A DNA stretch of 9,874 bases, from positions 1 to 9,874 of the forward strand of contig JALTID010000131.1 of assembly GCA_027004335.1 (NCBI GenBank), written 5' to 3'. A program made the position numbers and the translations under genes. Source of the DNA: JALTID01 sp027004335 [NCBI: bacterium]. GTDB taxonomy: Bacteria; JALSQH01. A model generated the notes under the pieces. That model was not told the DNA's origin. It was given only the letters and a program-made list of their open reading frames with translations, and did no database searches. Positions 2,005 to 8,597 of the stretch are shown piece by piece; positions within the stretch are counted from its first letter, which is position 1; the number at the start of each line of letters is the position of its first letter.

Positions 2005-2407
2005 ATTTATTATCTATACCGATGGTGCCTCCAGAGGCAATCCGGGAAAATCAGGTGTTGGCTTCGTGATCTATGATGAAAAGGGTAATACAATATTCGA
2101 GGGACACAGATACCTGGGAATAGCTACCAACAATCAGGCGGAATACACAGCTCTTCTACTGGCTCTTAAAAAGGCGCTGGAGTTAGGTGCAGAGGAATTG
2201 GAGATAAGAAGTGATTCTCAATTGTTGATAAAGCAGTTAAGGGGAGAATATAGGGTAAAAAGTCCCAATATAATAACTCTGTTCATAAAGGCTAAGTCGC
2301 TTCTTTCTAATTTCAGGAGAACAACTTTTACTCATATACCCAGAGAACAGAATAAGAGGGCTGATTCCCTTGCCAATCTTGCTATTGATTCTAAGAAGGA
2401 AAATTAA
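1991..2407 (+). CDS. rnhA: Ribonuclease HI family protein
   Basis: Type 1 RNase H fold enzyme (138 aa) that cuts RNA in RNA-DNA hybrids, such as Okazaki primers or R-loops. The four acidic metal ligands are recognisable: Asp11 (YTDGASRGNPG), Glu51 (NNQAEYTALL), Asp75 (RSDSQLL) and Asp125 (NKRADSLA). The spacing resembles the short archaeal/Bacillus YpdQ-like group, which lacks the basic handle region of E. coli RNase HI, so reduced hybrid binding is possible. I chose ATG 1991, giving [12 protein letters not shown]. The TTG just before it adds one residue without support. The gene overlaps xseB by 14 bases and shows no own Shine-Dalgarno, suggesting coupling. Its stop shares TTAA with the opposing coaBC stop. 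Confidence 0.92.
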   Translation: MKKSKFIIYTDGASRGNPGKSGVGFVIYDEKGNTIFEGHRYLGIATNNQAEYTALLLALKKALELGAEELEIRSDSQLLIKQLRGEYRVKSPNIITLFIKAKSLLSNFRRTTFTHIPREQNKRADSLANLAIDSKKEN

Positions 2408-3603
2408 AGAAGATTTTTTATTTCATCTAAAATTGCATCTGCCAGGTCATCCTTGTTCTGAAGATCAAATCCTTTCTGTGTGCCATTTTTGAAGATCAGG
2501 GTTCCGTAGTTTGTCTCGCTTCCAAATCCTGCCCCTTCTGCTGTAAGATCATTGGCAAAAATAAGATCAAGATTTTTTCTTCTCATTTTTTCTACGGCAT
2601 GTTCCACAACCTTTTCAGTTTCAGCGGCAAACCCCATAACGATTCCATCCTTCATCTTCTTAGCCACACTGAAAATTATATCTGGAGTTTTAACAAGGGT
2701 CAGAATCTGTTTATTTTCCTTTGACTCTTTCTTTACCTTCTGTTTGTGTTTTTTCTCAGGTTTAAAATCAGCCACAGCAGCGGCACCTATGAAGAGTTTT
2801 GCCCCCTGGGTATTTTTTTCTACTGCTTTTAACATCTCAGTAGATGAAGTGACTTTTATAACTTTTACACCATCTGGTGCTTCAATTTCTGTAGGGCCTG
2901 AGATCAGGTAAACATCTGCACCTCTCTGAGATAGCTTCTTTGCCAGGGCATAGCCCATCCTCCCCGTGGATGGATTTGATATGAATCTTACCGGGTCAAG
3001 GTGTTCCCTTGTGGGTCCAGCTGTTACAACAGCTTTTATTCCTTTAAAATCCTTTGGAGTGAGAAGATCCTCTATTACCTCCACAATTTTTTCAGGTTCC
3101 TCCATCCTTCCCTTCCCCTCATAACCACATGCGAGAGATCCTTCACGGGGTTCTATGATAATATGCCCAAATTTTCTCAGCGTGCTGATATTCCTCTGGA
3201 CGATTTTGTTCTCATACATATGAACATTCATTGCCGGTGCAATCAGGATCGGTCTGGTATACGCAAGGGAAATTGTAGTAATAAAGTCATCTGCAATTCC
3301 TGAAGTCAATTTTCCGATAAAATTTGCAGTAGCAGGTGCTACCACAAAGGCATTAGCTTCATCGGGGAGGGTTATATGTTTTATTTCTGCACCATGAATA
3401 GTGTCAAAAGTAGATTCAATTACAGGATTCACCGAGAGAGTCTGGCAGGTGAGGGGAGTGATGAATTTTTTTGCATTTTCTGTTATAACGACATTTACAC
3501 TGGCACCCCTTTTTACAAGAAGGCGTACCAGTTCGCAGCTTTTATATGCTGCTATCCCGCCTGTTATACCCACAAGAATTTTTTTATCCTTTAATCTGTT
3601 CAG
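2404..3603 (-). CDS. coaBC: Bifunctional phosphopantothenoylcysteine decarboxylase/synthetase
   Basis: CoaBC (Dfp) makes 4'-phosphopantetheine precursors for coenzyme A: the CoaB half ligates cysteine to phosphopantothenate using CTP, and the FMN-dependent CoaC half decarboxylates the product. With the CTG start proposed here the protein is 399 aa and begins MNRLKDKKILVGITGG. CoaC (about 1-180) shows GGIAAYK, the His76 region, PAMNVHMYEN with Asn126, and ACGYEGKGRM with catalytic Cys159. CoaB (about 190-399) shows TAGPTREHLDPVR, SNPSTGRMG with Asn210, GAAAVADFKP, KVKK starting at Lys289, and GFAAET. These numbers fall at or within one residue of the E. coli sites as I remember them. The first ATG/GTG/TTG in frame, GTG 3573, would remove the first beta strand. 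The gene follows the MBL hydrolase gene with a CTGA overlap. Confidence 0.95.
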   Translation of the reverse strand: MNRLKDKKILVGITGGIAAYKSCELVRLLVKRGASVNVVITENAKKFITPLTCQTLSVNPVIESTFDTIHGAEIKHITLPDEANAFVVAPATANFIGKLTSGIADDFITTISLAYTRPILIAPAMNVHMYENKIVQRNISTLRKFGHIIIEPREGSLACGYEGKGRMEEPEKIVEVIEDLLTPKDFKGIKAVVTAGPTREHLDPVRFISNPSTGRMGYALAKKLSQRGADVYLISGPTEIEAPDGVKVIKVTSSTEMLKAVEKNTQGAKLFIGAAAVADFKPEKKHKQKVKKESKENKQILTLVKTPDIIFSVAKKMKDGIVMGFAAETEKVVEHAVEKMRRKNLDLIFANDLTAEGAGFGSETNYGTLIFKNGTQKGFDLQNKDDLADAILDEIKNLL

Positions 3604-4241
3604 AGGTAACCTCCTTCCTGCAAAAATGGGTTAAATTTCCTCTCTTCCTCAATGGTGGTTGGCTCCTCATGTCCTGAATATACTTTAACATCACCGGGAA
3701 GTGTAAGCAACTTCTCTTTAATTGATCTTATCAAAATTTCAAAATTGCCTCCGGGGAGATCAGTTCTGCCTATACTTCTTCTAAAAAGAGCATCACCACT
3801 GAAGAGAATTTTTTCCTTTTCGTTATAGAGGGAAATCCCTCCTGGAGAGTGCCCTGGTGTCTCAATTACCTTCAACTGGATCTCCCCGCAGTTAATTGTA
3901 TCTCCTTCTTCCACAAAAATATCGGGAGCAGGGACTTCCGGCGGTGAAAGCCCAAATAATCTTGCCTGAAGGGGGACACTTTTGAGAGTCTCTATTTCCT
4001 TTTTGTTTATAACAATTTTTGCACCGGTTTTTCTTTTTAGCGGCGCAGCTGCACCTACATGGTCAAAATGCCCATGGGTAAGGATAATGTATTTCAGATT
4101 TATACTTTCTTTCTCAATGTAATTTAAAAGTAGCTCCGTCTCATCTGCAGGATCAATGATTATTCCACAGTTTGTATCTTCATCAACTAAAATATATGTG
4201 TTGGTAAACGCTGCTCCCAAAATAAATCTCTTAACTTTCAC
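3600..4241 (-). CDS. MBL-fold hydrolase, glyoxalase II-like
   Basis: Metallo-beta-lactamase-fold hydrolase (213 aa), cytoplasmic by lack of any signal. It resembles the short GloB/YcbL group, which cleaves thioesters such as S-lactoylglutathione, but the true substrate cannot be read from sequence. All metal ligands are present: THGHFDH (His56, His58, Asp60, His61), His131 in TPGHSPGG, Asp150 in FSGDALF and His191 in YSGHEE. The stretch FRRSIGRTDLPGG (153-165) is typical of this group. The annotated start is GTG 4241; AAAGG at 4252-4256 is about 10 bases away. A CTG at 4247-4245 is closer to it, so a start two codons earlier is possible. It is first in an operon with coaBC; that link is genomic, and a metabolic tie is not evident. 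Confidence 0.88.
   Translation of the reverse strand: MKVKRFILGAAFTNTYILVDEDTNCGIIIDPADETELLLNYIEKESINLKYIILTHGHFDHVGAAAPLKRKTGAKIVINKKEIETLKSVPLQARLFGLSPPEVPAPDIFVEEGDTINCGEIQLKVIETPGHSPGGISLYNEKEKILFSGDALFRRSIGRTDLPGGNFEILIRSIKEKLLTLPGDVKVYSGHEEPTTIEEERKFNPFLQEGGYL
3610..3616 (-). promoter_or_regulatory. Ribosome binding site deciding the coaBC CTG start
   Basis: The minus strand reads AAGGAGG here, a perfect Shine-Dalgarno sequence inside the last codons of the MBL hydrolase gene. It lies 6 bases before CTG 3603-3601 but 36 bases before GTG 3573, too far to serve the latter. The CTG overlaps the hydrolase stop TGA (3602-3600), the same geometry as the ATGA overlaps elsewhere in the window. 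Confidence 0.75.
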
Positions 4242-4256
4242 TATCAGCTTACCTTT

Positions 4257-4289
4257 TTACACATTTTCTTCATATTTTTCTTCTTCCAT
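4257..4289 (-). CDS. Possible 10-codon leader peptide
   Basis: An ATG at 4289-4287 follows GGGGGG (4301-4296) at good spacing and is about 17 bases after the expected transcription start. It encodes MEEEKYEENV and then TAA. The frame is the same as that of the downstream hydrolase, whose GTG is 15 bases beyond the TAA, so this is either a short translated leader that feeds ribosomes to the hydrolase start, or the former N-terminus cut off by a stop. The peptide has no run of a single regulatory amino acid, although five of its ten residues are Glu. Translation is inferred, not proven. Confidence 0.35.
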   Translation of the reverse strand: MEEEKYEENV

Positions 4290-4310
4290 TATTTACCCCC
4301 CTGTTTTCTT

Positions 4311-4345
4311 AAATTATAGCAGTGGAATAAGGGTGAGGCAAAAAT
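4311..4345 (-). promoter_or_regulatory. Promoter of the MBL hydrolase-coaBC operon (repeat copy 1)
   Basis: On the minus strand, TTGCCT (4341-4336) and TATAAT (4318-4313) are separated by exactly 17 bases, and TGC before TATAAT gives an extended -10. This is close to the sigma70 consensus. The expected transcription start is near 4306. The whole 35-base block recurs at 6365-6399 with three mismatches, so it is also a direct repeat. Confidence 0.8.
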
Positions 4346-4425
4346 TGTTTAGATGCGCATATACATACTCTTCCCTTTTACTCAACTCCCCAATCAGTAA
4401 GTAAAGAGACATTGATTTAACTCCC

Positions 4426-4451
4426 GGTCACTTCGACACAGCTCAGTGATC
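4426..4451 (-). repeat. Degenerate palindromic repeat, copy 1
   Basis: The minus strand begins GATCACTGAGC and ends TCGAAGTGACC, with arms GATCACT and AGTGACC pairing at 6 of 7 positions. The core CTGAGC...TCGAAG is shared with the other copies in this cluster. Confidence 0.6.
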
Positions 4452-4552
4452 TTGAGATTTTTCATGCTTATCAAAGCCCCGTGCCTCTCAAAGGAAATGC
4501 CCGAGTTTAGCAAGAGGTGATCAACACAGTGCACTTATTTTTCTTTAGCATG

Positions 4553-4574
4553 GTCACTCGGGAGCGAGAATGAC
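4553..4574. repeat. Hairpin with 8-base-pair stem
   Basis: GTCA CTCG, loop GGAG, then CGAG, two unpaired A, and TGAC. The stem is perfect apart from the AA bulge. No T tract follows on either strand, so an intrinsic terminator is not supported. It lies within the palindrome cluster but its core differs from the CTGAGC...TCGAAG copies. Confidence 0.55.
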
Positions 4575-4610
4575 AACACACTTACCAACCTTGTTTATCC
4601 CTTATAGTGA

Positions 4611-4635
4611 GGTTCCTGAGTGTAATCGAAGGGCC
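4611..4635 (+). repeat. Degenerate palindromic repeat, copy 2
   Basis: GGTTCCTGAG at the left and TCGAAGGGCC at the right, pairing through G-C and G-T pairs. It keeps the CTGAG...TCGAAG core. Confidence 0.6.
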
Positions 4636-4646
4636 AAGCACATCCA

Positions 4647-4672
4647 GACTGCTTCGGCTTTGTTCAGCAACC
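4647..4672 (-). repeat. Degenerate palindromic repeat, copy 3
   Basis: The minus strand begins GGTTGCTGAAC and ends GCCGAAGCAGTC. Arms GGTTGCT and AGCAGTC pair imperfectly, and CTGA...CGAAG is retained. It is the most diverged of the clear copies. Confidence 0.5.
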
Positions 4673-4679
4673 TTAACAT

Positions 4680-4724
4680 GGCTCCGAGCTTGTCGAGGGG
4701 ACACTTCTACCGCGCTCAGCGACC
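4680..4724. repeat. Palindromic repeat copies 4 and 5, facing each other
   Basis: The left copy (4680-4703) reads GGCTCCGAGCTTGTCGAGG on the plus strand. The right copy (4699-4724) reads GGTCGCTGAGC...GTAGAAGTG on the minus strand. The two overlap by a few bases and are inverted relative to each other, so they could also fold as one larger cruciform. Confidence 0.6.
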
Positions 4725-4784
4725 TTTTCAGTGAGTAAATACTTTACACGATGTACCCCAAGGGAAGATTATTATCTATCCCCT

Positions 4785-6338
4785 TTACAATTTTTCATAC
4801 TGAGACGAAACAATATTCCTCTCTTCTTTGCTAAAGGTGATCCCAATTAAATATATCTCCTTATATTTTCCCCGATATTTCTCGTAATATTTCTTCTCCT
4901 TTATCTGATCCAGAGGTGATTTATCCTCTGAAAAATTCGCCTTTACCTTAAATTCCAGAATATAAACTTTGTCTTTTACAATAACTGTTAAATCTATCCT
5001 CCCTTTATTGGTCACATCTTCTGTAATAAGCGTTACCCCCAGTGATGCAAGGTAGGTATAGATTACGCTTACATAGTAACCTTCATAGGTGTCAATCTCA
5101 TTTTTTGTAAAATTCGTATAACTAATTGAGGAAAATAGGGCTTTAAAGTTATTTATTAAATCATCTACTCTCCCTTCTAAAAGGTATTCTTCTACTTCGG
5201 AGAGAAGTCTTGTTTTGGGATCTGTAGTTAAATCAGTTAAAAATTTCAATATGGTATTGTTAAGGCTCTTCTTGACTTCAAGATTTGGGTAACTGAGATA
5301 ATATATGTTACTCATATCCAGAGCTTGTCTTATATCCCTGATGGTTAAGTACCCCGTTTGCCACAAAAGGGCTTCTATTTCCATAGTATAAACATCAAAG
5401 CTACTCAATAATTCATCTGTAGCCTTTACTTCCTCAAGATCAGGTATAAAATACTTCTGTTTTTTCATCAACTTCATCAAAAATGCTGGTGTCCCTGTCT
5501 CAAACCAGTAGGAACAAAAGGAAAATCCTTTAGAAATAAACAACAATATATCAAAAGGATTGTACACTTTCTCACCTAACCAGCTATAACCATTGTACCA
5601 TAACTTTACCTGCTCAAGATCTGCTCCATTTAAATGCCCAGAAAAGTATTTCTCAAGCTCTTCCTGGGTGTATCCACAAAGAGCAGAATATCTTTTATCA
5701 ATGGTTATATCCTCGAGATTGTTAAGTTTGCTAAAAAGATTAACCTTACTGAATTTTGTAACTCCAGTTAAAAATACAAATCTTAAATACTCATCAAGAC
5801 CCTTTAATACTCCATAAAAATTTGCCAGAAGATCCCTTATCTTTTCCGCTTGCTCAGGATTTTCTATGTTATCTAAAATTGGTTTGTCATATTCATCAAT
5901 TAAAACTACCACCGGCATTTTGTATTTCTGGTAAGCCTTTTTGATCAAACAGAGGAAATAACTGCTATAAATTTCTCTGTTACATCCTGGTAATTCAAGA
6001 CTTTCCTCAATCCCCATAAGTGTGTCAGAAAGGGTTTTAAGAAATATTTCTGGTGTATCTGCATTAATCTCACTGAAATCTATTCTTATCACAGGATATT
6101 TTTTATTCCAGTCCCATTTGTCATAAATATATAATCCTTTGAGTAGTTTTTTATTTCCCTCAAAAATATTTTTTAAAGTATCCACAGTTAGAGTCTTCCC
6201 GAATCTCCTGGGGCGAGAAAGGAAATAGTATCTTCCACTGCGGATAAGTTCATATATCTGCCTCGTTTTATCAACATATAAAAATCCTTCATTGATAATC
6301 GTTTTTAGGCTGTTTAATCCAATAGGTAACTGTTTCAT
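4785..6338 (-). CDS. AAA-ATPase-like / PD-(D/E)XK nuclease protein (DUF1703 type)
   Basis: A 517-aa protein of a family that joins an AAA-ATPase-like domain to a C-terminal restriction-endonuclease-like fold. Its biological role is unknown to me; it is common in anaerobes and often multicopy. Seen here: YVDKT (21-25), a variant P-loop SRPRRFGKT (41-49), Walker B VVVLIDEYDKP (143-153), a sensor-like FLTGVTKFSKVNLFS (189-203), YNGY (248-251), and the nuclease region EGYYVSVIYTYLASLG (419-434), Glu440, GRIDL with Asp449, EFK with Glu462 and Lys464, and QIKEKKYYEKY (478-488). Both active sites look intact. ATG 6338 is chosen; GGGAGG (6355-6350) is 11 bases upstream. A TTG at 6395 falls in the promoter's -35. 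It has its own promoter immediately behind the glucosidase stop and sits between two direct repeats. No membrane segment is seen. Confidence 0.88.
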   Translation of the reverse strand: MKQLPIGLNSLKTIINEGFLYVDKTRQIYELIRSGRYYFLSRPRRFGKTLTVDTLKNIFEGNKKLLKGLYIYDKWDWNKKYPVIRIDFSEINADTPEIFLKTLSDTLMGIEESLELPGCNREIYSSYFLCLIKKAYQKYKMPVVVLIDEYDKPILDNIENPEQAEKIRDLLANFYGVLKGLDEYLRFVFLTGVTKFSKVNLFSKLNNLEDITIDKRYSALCGYTQEELEKYFSGHLNGADLEQVKLWYNGYSWLGEKVYNPFDILLFISKGFSFCSYWFETGTPAFLMKLMKKQKYFIPDLEEVKATDELLSSFDVYTMEIEALLWQTGYLTIRDIRQALDMSNIYYLSYPNLEVKKSLNNTILKFLTDLTTDPKTRLLSEVEEYLLEGRVDDLINNFKALFSSISYTNFTKNEIDTYEGYYVSVIYTYLASLGVTLITEDVTNKGRIDLTVIVKDKVYILEFKVKANFSEDKSPLDQIKEKKYYEKYRGKYKEIYLIGITFSKEERNIVSSQYEKL

Positions 6339-6364
6339 TGAAATATGATCCTCCCTTTTTATTA

Positions 6365-6399
6365 AAATTATAGCAGTGGAACGAGGGTAAGGCAAAAAC
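6365..6399 (-). promoter_or_regulatory. Promoter of the ATPase/nuclease gene (repeat copy 2)
   Basis: On the minus strand, TTGCCT (6395-6390) and TATAAT (6372-6367) are 17 bases apart, with an extended TGC before the -10. The expected start is near 6360, about 22 bases before the ATG. It matches 32 of 35 bases of copy 1 at 4311-4345, and weaker similarity continues through the A-rich stretch to the Shine-Dalgarno. Its first bases touch the glucosidase stop codon. Confidence 0.8.
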
Positions 6400-8597
6400 T
6401 ATCTGATCTCGATCTTCCAGCCCGATGGTTTTTTTCTTATCTGAACAGCAATCCCTCCCTCATTTCTTGTAACTGATATAGAAAACTTTCCTCCTCCAGC
6501 TGGAAGATCTTCTATCAGGATACTGTTTATTCCTGCGGGGAGATGAGGTTTGTTAAAAGAAATAATTTTATTAAGAGCGTCTAACTTAATTCCAAGCATT
6601 GCCTTTAACATAAGAAAAACACTCCCGCTGGCCCACGCCTGGGGGAAACACGCTGTGGGATAGGGTACTGGTCCATGAAACTCGCTGAGAGGAAATCCTC
6701 CGATGAGCTCCGGTATCCTGTAATTAGGATAATAGGAAGCAGCTTCAGTTATTCCCATGAAAATCTCTCCTATTTTCTCTCTGAAACTATATTTTGAAAA
6801 ACCATCACAGATTATGCTGTTATCATGGGGCCATACCGATCCGTTGTGATAGCTAATCGGGTTGTACCTCGCCTCCTTTTCTGAAAGAGTTCTTATGGCA
6901 AAGCCATTGTATATGTCACTTTCTGAAAGAGAATGATGAATAAGTTCTGCGTCACTTCTACTTACAGCCTCAGCAAAGAGAAGATAGCCCATATTGGAGG
7001 TTTTTATAGAACATTTTTTCTTTTTCCCATCAATTGCAAGTGCAAAAATTTTTCTCTTTTTATCATAGAAGTACTCTTTTATTCTCTGCCTGAATTTACT
7101 GGCTTTCTTCTTTATATCGGAATATTCTTCATCTGTTATCTTCTTTAAAAATCTCCCCAGATCAGCATAATCCAGCATCGCCCTATGCCTGTATCCCTGC
7201 GCTTCTACAGGAGCAAGAGGTGGCCTGGCAAGCTTCCCGTTTTTATAAAAAACAGAATCCCAGGAATCCTTCCAGCCCTGATTGGATAATCCTTTTGGAG
7301 ACCTCTTCACGTAATATAAAAAACCTTCATCAGATAGAAGAGGATTGTGAGACTTATCTGTGATCCATCTGTAAGCTTCTATAATGTGTTCCCATATATC
7401 TTTTATAAACTCTGAATCTCCACTGTTAAAAAGATAATTCCATGCAAGAATTATAAATAGCGGAGTTGAATCTACACTCCCATAATAAGGAATAAAGGGG
7501 ATTTCACGCATATTTGCCATTTCCCCTCTCCTTAGCTCATGGAGAATTTTACCGGGTTCTTCTTCAGTAAAATCATCAAATTTTTCTCCCTGATATTTTG
7601 ATAGAACTTTCAGGGTTCCTCTTGTCAATTCTGGATACCACGGCAGAAGTTGATAGGCGGTTATAATGGAATCCCTTCCAAAAATTGTGGAAAACCATGG
7701 AATACCAGCATATACAACAGGAGAGTCTCCCACCAGAGTTATCATAAGATTCAGATCCTTAGCTGCTCTCGAGAGGACCTCATTTACCTTTTCGTTGTCA
7801 CTCCTTATAAGAGTTATCTTTTTTAAATACTCCAGGAGCTTTTCTCTTCTCTTTGCAATGACCTCTGAGTAACTTTCAGTGATTTCTTTATCCTCCATGG
7901 AAGTCCTGAAAGTTATATCTACAGAGTTTCTCCTATCTCCTGCAGGGGAAAGAACAACTGGAATTTTTATCCTTGCAGTAGCAACAGAGTCCTCTACAGT
8001 TACATTAAGTAATTGAAATTCATTGCTTACCGTAAAGAAAGTTTTCCTTGTGATCTTATCCAGTCCAAGGTAGGAAAAAATGATTGTTTTATCATGAATG
8101 GATGGCATAGAGTTTTTACCTCTTTTTTTTCTCCTTTCACCTCTCACCTCGAAAATATCTTTGAAATCAGCCTTGATGCAGATTGTTATAAAAGTTTCTA
8201 TTTTTTTATCAGAAAAATTTTCTATGTGAAAATTCCCCCAGAGATCATCATCCATCAAAGCAAATGATTTTTTTACATATAGAGAAGATCTCGGCAGAAA
8301 TATTCCACTTACCTCCATATCTGGATTGGTAAATATTGACCTTACCTCTGCTCCCAGGTTACCTATGTCTGATGATAAGTAGATTAATTTCTTATCTGCA
8401 AAAGAAAATTCAAGTCCGCTCAGAAACCTTGTGTCTCTAAAATAATATCCCTGTTCAGATTCTCCCTGGCACGATATTTCTGCATTCTGGTCAAGGACAA
8501 CAAAGGCGTCATGTTCCTTCAATGTGTGCTTCTTTATGTTTGGTACTATGTCTGAATAAAGTACATACCACTCACCATCTATTAGTTTTTTCTCCAA
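6399..8597 (-). CDS. Glycogen-debranching-like glucosidase (GDE N-terminal domain family)
   Basis: A 732-aa protein of the family often annotated amylo-alpha-1,6-glucosidase. It has an N-terminal beta-rich glycogen-debranching domain (about 10-260, with YYFRDTRFLSGLEF at 51-64) and a C-terminal (alpha/alpha)6 barrel. Barrel motifs: AGIPWFSTIFGRDS (297-310), YYGSVDSTP (371-379), NQGWKDSWD (439-447), VEAQGYRHRA (464-473), YHNGSVWPHDN (583-593) and PVPYPTACFPQAWASG (643-658). Asp309, Asp444 and Glu465 are plausible acid/base candidates. There is no signal peptide, so it is probably cytoplasmic and acts on a glucan or glycoside; the exact linkage is unknown. The start is TTG 8597, 6 bases after a perfect AAGGAGG (8610-8604), giving 26 bases of overlap with the glycosyltransferase gene. 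The length is normal for the family. Confidence 0.88.
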   Translation of the reverse strand: MEKKLIDGEWYVLYSDIVPNIKKHTLKEHDAFVVLDQNAEISCQGESEQGYYFRDTRFLSGLEFSFADKKLIYLSSDIGNLGAEVRSIFTNPDMEVSGIFLPRSSLYVKKSFALMDDDLWGNFHIENFSDKKIETFITICIKADFKDIFEVRGERRKKRGKNSMPSIHDKTIIFSYLGLDKITRKTFFTVSNEFQLLNVTVEDSVATARIKIPVVLSPAGDRRNSVDITFRTSMEDKEITESYSEVIAKRREKLLEYLKKITLIRSDNEKVNEVLSRAAKDLNLMITLVGDSPVVYAGIPWFSTIFGRDSIITAYQLLPWYPELTRGTLKVLSKYQGEKFDDFTEEEPGKILHELRRGEMANMREIPFIPYYGSVDSTPLFIILAWNYLFNSGDSEFIKDIWEHIIEAYRWITDKSHNPLLSDEGFLYYVKRSPKGLSNQGWKDSWDSVFYKNGKLARPPLAPVEAQGYRHRAMLDYADLGRFLKKITDEEYSDIKKKASKFRQRIKEYFYDKKRKIFALAIDGKKKKCSIKTSNMGYLLFAEAVSRSDAELIHHSLSESDIYNGFAIRTLSEKEARYNPISYHNGSVWPHDNSIICDGFSKYSFREKIGEIFMGITEAASYYPNYRIPELIGGFPLSEFHGPVPYPTACFPQAWASGSVFLMLKAMLGIKLDALNKIISFNKPHLPAGINSILIEDLPAGGGKFSISVTRNEGGIAVQIRKKPSGWKIEIR

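Follow-up and report, generated by a model that had tools for sequence, protein, structure and literature searches.

The locus described here raises the question of why two nearly identical promoter-like sequences lie as direct repeats around a single ATPase/nuclease gene, one of them ahead of that gene and the other ahead of genes that include coaBC. The window, i.e., the whole stretch of 9,874 nucleotides that was analysed, is contig 131 of the draft genome G000 (JALTID01 sp027004335), which comprises 1,499,237 bases in 262 contigs and is 80.2% complete. The minus strand carries, in this order, a glycosyltransferase gene, a glucosidase gene of the glycogen-debranching type (6399-8597, minus strand; PF14742 and PF06202), one copy of the repeat (P2), the ATPase/nuclease gene, about 440 non-coding bases, the other copy of the repeat (P1), an MBL-fold hydrolase gene (3600-4241, minus strand; PF00753) and coaBC (2404-3573, minus strand; PF02441 and PF04127), which is the second gene downstream of P1.

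Each copy of the repeat includes a ribosome-binding site and lies on the minus strand, P1 at 4296-4344 (34-mer core 4311-4344) and P2 at 6350-6398 (34-mer core 6365-6398). Both read TTGCCT, a 17-base spacer and TATAAT with TG in front (TG-N-TATAAT). The -35, the spacer of 16-18 bases and the -10 of a sigma-70 promoter are thus present in both, and they were taken as putative promoters. Among 11 promoter-like sites in 3500-6600 they ranked as the top two, with 10 of 12 consensus bases compared with 9 for the others. The original prediction had described near-identical promoters in the same direction, with the same -35, 17-base spacer and extended -10, as direct repeats bounding the ATPase/nuclease gene and its palindromes, and this description was borne out: the cores are identical at 31/34 bases, whereas shuffled sequences reached at most 26/34. 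The distance of 2054 bases from start to start agrees with the predicted span, and P2 does adjoin the glucosidase, base 6399 being the last base of its stop codon and P2 starting directly after it. One detail was corrected, in that the 35-mers said to differ at three bases differ at four, the fourth being the pair 4345/6399; the count of three holds for the 34-mers. All three of these differences fall within the 17-base spacer, and both hexamers and the TG are identical. Uninterrupted identity reaches at most 17 bases (4311-4327). Without gaps, the likeness spans 49 bases (4296-4344 and 6350-6398, 41/49 identical) and covers the 5' leader and the ribosome-binding site; its limits are the stop codon of the glucosidase at one end and a point shortly past the ribosome-binding site at the other.

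This pair was also the best among all same-strand 34-mer repeats of the window. Thirty dinucleotide shuffles reached only 23-26, no other real repeat away from the P1/P2 diagonal exceeded 25, and chance similarity was ruled out by this comparison. The 14/17 match of the spacers has a binomial probability of about 2e-6, or about 2e-5 for 12/15 when the TG is left out. When further copies were sought in the genome, a degenerate 34-mer with up to three mismatches matched only the P1 and P2 places in the 80.2% complete assembly, and so a common regulon promoter, i.e., the same sequence before many unrelated genes, was rejected as well. A looser 15-base pattern round the extended -10 gave 111 matches compared with 65 for its reversed control; 30 of the 111 were taken as loci (P1 and P2 included) and the other 81 were judged by their 15 bases only. 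The best likeness to P1 or P2 among the other 28, in which one place is listed twice, was 26/49. Because of the excess over shuffles and the presence of only two copies in the genome at up to three mismatches, P1 and P2 are best read as copies by common descent, that is, as two descendants of one segment of about 49 bases, and a large regulon is not indicated.

The gene between the two copies (4785-6338, minus strand) encodes 517 amino acids from its ATG and is of the DUF1703 type. In the numbering of the long open reading frame, an N-terminal AAA-ATPase_like domain (PF09820, E 1.3e-62) covers residues 24-221 and a C-terminal PDDEXK_9 domain (PF08011, E 5e-23) covers residues 437-529. Inspection of the translation by eye found SRPRRFGKT, an arginine-rich variant Walker A of the RPRRFGKS type, together with IDEYD (Walker B DEYD), RIDLT and LEFK. 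The DUF1703 type and such Walker variants have been described (PMC1913061), and in our reading the D of RIDLT and the E-x-K of LEFK would be the catalytic residues of the nuclease. No PADLOC family of anti-phage defence and no NCBIfam model matched the protein at E 0.01, and PF09820 itself is listed for RdrA, PARIS 1 and Old-tin (PMC10952713). With a G+C content of 33.1%, the gene is below its neighbours: coaBC-MBL has 40.4%, the glucosidase 38.2%, the glycosyltransferase 40.6% and the pur-to-rnhA genes 39.0%. A sequence search that covered G000, the sister genome G001, plasmids and phages found relatives in 61 plasmid and 32 phage records, none of which reaches 60% identity; the closest copy in the own genome (C61a) is 73% identical and is broken off at codon 8. 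The window's contig holds no second family match at E 0.001.

The hallmarks of a transposon or insertion sequence were looked for, with negative results. The best inverted match between 120 upstream and 1500 downstream bases scored 21, below the 26 reached by shuffled direct matches, and thus no terminal inverted repeats were found. As to a regular target-site duplication, a direct repeat above the shuffles was found at 1/14 complete family loci, in a test to which repeats of a few bases are invisible.

Between the ATPase/nuclease gene and P1 lies a non-coding stretch (4346-4784) of degenerate palindromes of mixed type, the G+C content of which (45.1%) is above that of the neighbouring genes. 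Its predicted RNA folding was no better than that of shuffles (z -0.14) and no Rfam model matched the window at the gathering score, and an RNA element was accordingly rejected. The window had 0 matches to a REP-like palindrome pattern. Compared with 32 loci of the own genome (93,683 bases, overlaps included), the stretch matched only the locus that overlaps the window.

Whether promoters travel with genes of this kind was examined in the wider family. The PF09820 profile was run against 59 genomes, five of which had matches at E 0.001 and three above the curated cut-off, with 4 matches in G000, 8 in the sister G001 and 26 in the unrelated G050 (some of those in G001 and G050 are fragments). 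Promoter heads common to dispersed paralogs were found in G000, G001, G050 and the Calditerrivibrio plasmid pCALNI01. In G000, the alignment of the copies C61b and C7 begins 39 bases ahead of the ATG and ends 7 bases short of the stop. In G001, the first-subfamily copies C41 and C220 are alike at 44/49 bases from the promoter into the gene start, in an alignment that begins 35 bases before the ATG, and the third copy of that subfamily, C249, has only 15 upstream bases in common with them. Alignments among the second-subfamily copies C204, C89 and C13 begin 38-45 bases before the ATG, and one pair is 94.6% identical over 333 bases. Within about 90 bases before position 6573 of the C204 locus (L157), two tandem promoter-like sequences, each with TGCTATAAT, lie ahead of the family gene.

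For G050, 20 regions were fetched and 18 of the 26 matches were used (9 complete genes and 9 cut by contig ends); two partial regions were unused and six further fragments were excluded. Among the 56 pairs above the score limit, 8 begin within one base of the ATG and many begin near the promoter. As 12 of the 56 extend more than 100 bases upstream and one extends 186 bases beyond the stop, the boundary of homology is not always sharp. At the second-subfamily loci L181, L182, L183, L184, L186 and L188 of this genome, the leader ahead of the start codon contains a stretch resembling CCGCCGCAGGCG or CCTACCGGAGGTA. Among the five heads on pCALNI01, three have the same 60 bases, a fourth agrees with these at 55/60, and a fifth agrees with the three at 44/60 and with the fourth at 47/60; all five stand ahead of a family gene, two of which have decayed. 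In the pair 11137/37428 on this plasmid, the likeness begins 171-172 bases upstream and continues until 81-88 bases beyond the stop. Heptamer repeats of the GAACGTT/GAACATT type are also present directly downstream, and partly upstream, of three intact DUF1703 copies there (L197/L198).

Searches with the heads themselves covered three types, two of them in G001 and G000 and one in G050. The C41/C220 type was found at 2 places and the C204/C89/C13 type at 3 places in G001, both at 0 places in G000, and the G050 type was found at 4 places in G050. With the five heads on pCALNI01 the total is 14, all of which stand ahead of family genes, and a head before an unrelated gene is therefore exceptional. 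A promoter shared by descent is common within the DUF1703 family, and a copy before an unrelated operon is an exception. P2 matched none of five other heads of G000 and G001 at the reporting score, and when the window gene is aligned with the sister copies, the best alignments begin inside the gene. A degenerate 27-base promoter core had 0 exact matches in viral contigs. A downstream copy of the 120 upstream bases was sought at 14 complete family loci and was absent at 13, only the window gene scoring above its own shuffles (the downstream flank was 79 bases for one of the 13 other loci and 672-1500 bases for the rest). With a downstream copy at 1/14 loci, duplication of the promoter is not the usual insertion mark of the family.

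Exchange between heads and bodies was tested in two trios of copies, one from G001 (C220, C41 and C249) and one from G050 (C12, C27 and C31), and in both of them head and body came from different sources. The head of C220 is nearer to C41 (32/45) than to C249 (22/45) in a gapped alignment, whereas its first 180 coding bases are C249-like (57/60, 116/120). Positions 300-420 are unlike either, 540-1140 is nearer to C41, and after 1140 the gene is again C249-like to the end of C249 (112/120, 66/66). C12 is truncated at 204 codons; where it is last aligned ahead of the ATG, it matches C27 at 32/32 bases and C31 at 17/32, and its body at 180-540 is C31-like (117/120, 114/114, 119/120). These mosaics fit the intragenic recombination reported among DUF1703 paralogs in Cardinium (PMC6387759). 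A tree built from 15 proteins grouped the copies of the first subfamily by genome (2 from G000, 3 from G001 and 5 from G050); the two plasmid copies formed no group, and they and one outgroup row carried a long-branch warning.

A relative with a single promoter at an empty site was looked for in one other genome of the phylum, the sister G001, which is unassembled between the glucosidase and MBL genes. Its glucosidase contig starts 16 bases past the stop codon. Its MBL gene lies on another contig, where it is truncated near residue 116, and is followed by coaBC, rnhA, xseB, purQ, purS and purC as in the window; the two contigs presumably adjoin each other. At the end of these 16 bases stands TTTTGACC, which might, as a hint only, be a -35 at about the place of P2. 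More widely, 80 of 437 coaBC loci were kept and compared with the window proteins (tblastn, E 1e-8). Besides the sister, an MBL gene lies within 500 bases upstream of coaBC in 6/80 loci (L031, L032, L037, L040, L042 and L070). The glucosidase was detected in none of the 80 at this threshold, several of them ending near coaBC, and these loci are therefore uninformative on an empty site.

Taken together, these facts lead us to lean, with only modest confidence, towards the explanation that the segment of about 49 bases, with promoter and ribosome-binding site, was duplicated when a DUF1703 family gene came between the glucosidase and MBL-coaBC. One ancestral segment would have stood at the junction of the glucosidase and MBL-coaBC, and the place just past the glucosidase stop would be the older promoter position. 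A gene of the dispersed ATPase/nuclease family would then have arrived at the junction and the segment would have been doubled in the same event, duplication and arrival presumably being one; one copy would be left ahead of the ATPase/nuclease gene and the other ahead of MBL-coaBC, each driving its own gene or genes, and both are probably active. The identity of P1 and P2, their restriction to two copies in the genome, the low G+C content of the gene, and a multi-copy family with shared heads, mosaics and clusters by genome in the tree would speak for this explanation. The suggestion that the block was inserted or duplicated at a promoter is upheld to that extent, as regards copies by descent, a dispersed and recombining family and low G+C, and is weakened by the downstream copy being seen at only 1/14 family loci. 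Against it also stand the unassembled sister junction, where no empty site was seen, the failure of P2 to match any of five other heads, the alignments to the sister copies that begin inside the gene (with C61a cut off at codon 8), and the position of 14/14 heads ahead of family genes with homology that sometimes runs beyond promoter and gene.

The main rival holds that P2 is a family head that arrived with the ATPase gene and that P1 is the orphan head of a tandem copy whose body was deleted, now used by MBL-coaBC. Heads are indeed common to family genes at different loci in G000, G001, G050 and pCALNI01, and the plasmid carries tandem copies (37428 and 39095) whose heads are 44/60 alike, as well as bodies (17742 and 21039) that decayed behind kept heads. 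However, the gap from the P1 copy to the start of the MBL gene is just 54 bases, the window's contig bears no second family match at E 0.001, and none of the 14 heads elsewhere is an orphan, so that we regard this explanation as unlikely, although it is the strongest of the alternatives. It is very unlikely that the two copies were kept alike by one regulator binding the spacer of both, as a regulon of two members that arose by an old duplication with no link to the gene's arrival. The occurrence of the sequence at only these two places and the unchanged hexamers and TG would agree with such a regulator, but all three changes in the 34-mer lie in the spacer, where the operator would sit, and the likeness also spans the 5' leader and the ribosome-binding site. 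Convergence of two consensus promoters or plain chance is refuted for practical purposes by the 14/17 spacer, the 41/49 overall match and the shuffle test, even though loose 15-base matches are commoner than the reversed pattern (111 vs 65). A broader explanation, that DUF1703 genes are self-spreading cassettes of promoter plus ORF or of ORF only, the nuclease of which drives its own copying by break repair, with heads exchanged and a host promoter sometimes duplicated on insertion, is considered quite unlikely; if true, sister promoters at this locus would serve a selfish nuclease on one side and an essential operon for coenzyme A on the other.

Several known systems resemble the locus in part. 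In Cardinium cCpun, 25 DUF1703 paralogs (PF09820 + PF08011) were reported in a study of their expansion that stated their role as unknown (PMC6387759). Two-domain proteins, many paralogs per genome, recombination among paralogs and grouping of the members of one organism are common to that case and ours; shared heads, reassortment of heads and a putative promoter copy before an unrelated operon are seen here, whereas the word "promoter" occurs 0 times in the main text of that study. In Cardinium cTPut, DUF1703 fragments were listed as MITE candidates (PMC12039267), which likewise treats the family as repeated, possibly mobile DNA; unlike those fragments, the gene here is full-length and the inverted similarity of its flanks is below shuffled direct matches. 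The vlhA family of Mycoplasma (PMC6258824) likewise has numerous related genes with characteristic promoters; the proteins here are different. No title on shared or duplicated DUF1703 promoters was found in a search that had supplements and subscription journals outside its scope, and we do not claim that the subject is unpublished. As the promoters are often part of the copied or converted DUF1703 unit (in three genomes and one plasmid), they offer a handle on the spread and sustained expression of these genes. The general point, that DUF1703 promoters are often common to copies and sometimes exchanged, goes beyond the locus, which is itself a modest curiosity; it would show a promoter of the DUF1703 family, or one copied with a family gene, feeding a core metabolic operon.

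The two copies also bear on the stability and expression of the region. PMC5426353 deals with RecA-independent deletion between short direct repeats, and here, too, direct repeats flank a block that could be lost; the repeat, as seen in the assembled sequence, has an identical run of 17 bases. Recombination between P1 and P2 that removes 2054 bases is possible, as had been proposed, and should be rare, since the copies share only 17 identical bases in a row and are 2 kb apart. The ATPase/nuclease gene and coaBC may be under shared control, as was also suggested. In addition, the minus strand showed no terminator-like site from the ATPase/nuclease gene to P1, and transcripts from P2 may therefore reach MBL-coaBC as well. 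In the interval that separates P1 from the MBL start (4242-4296), a short minus-strand ORF, MEEEKYEENV followed by a stop, begins with an ATG at 4289 behind the GGGGGG of P1 and is in frame with the GTG start of the MBL gene at 4241; it could possibly encode a leader peptide.
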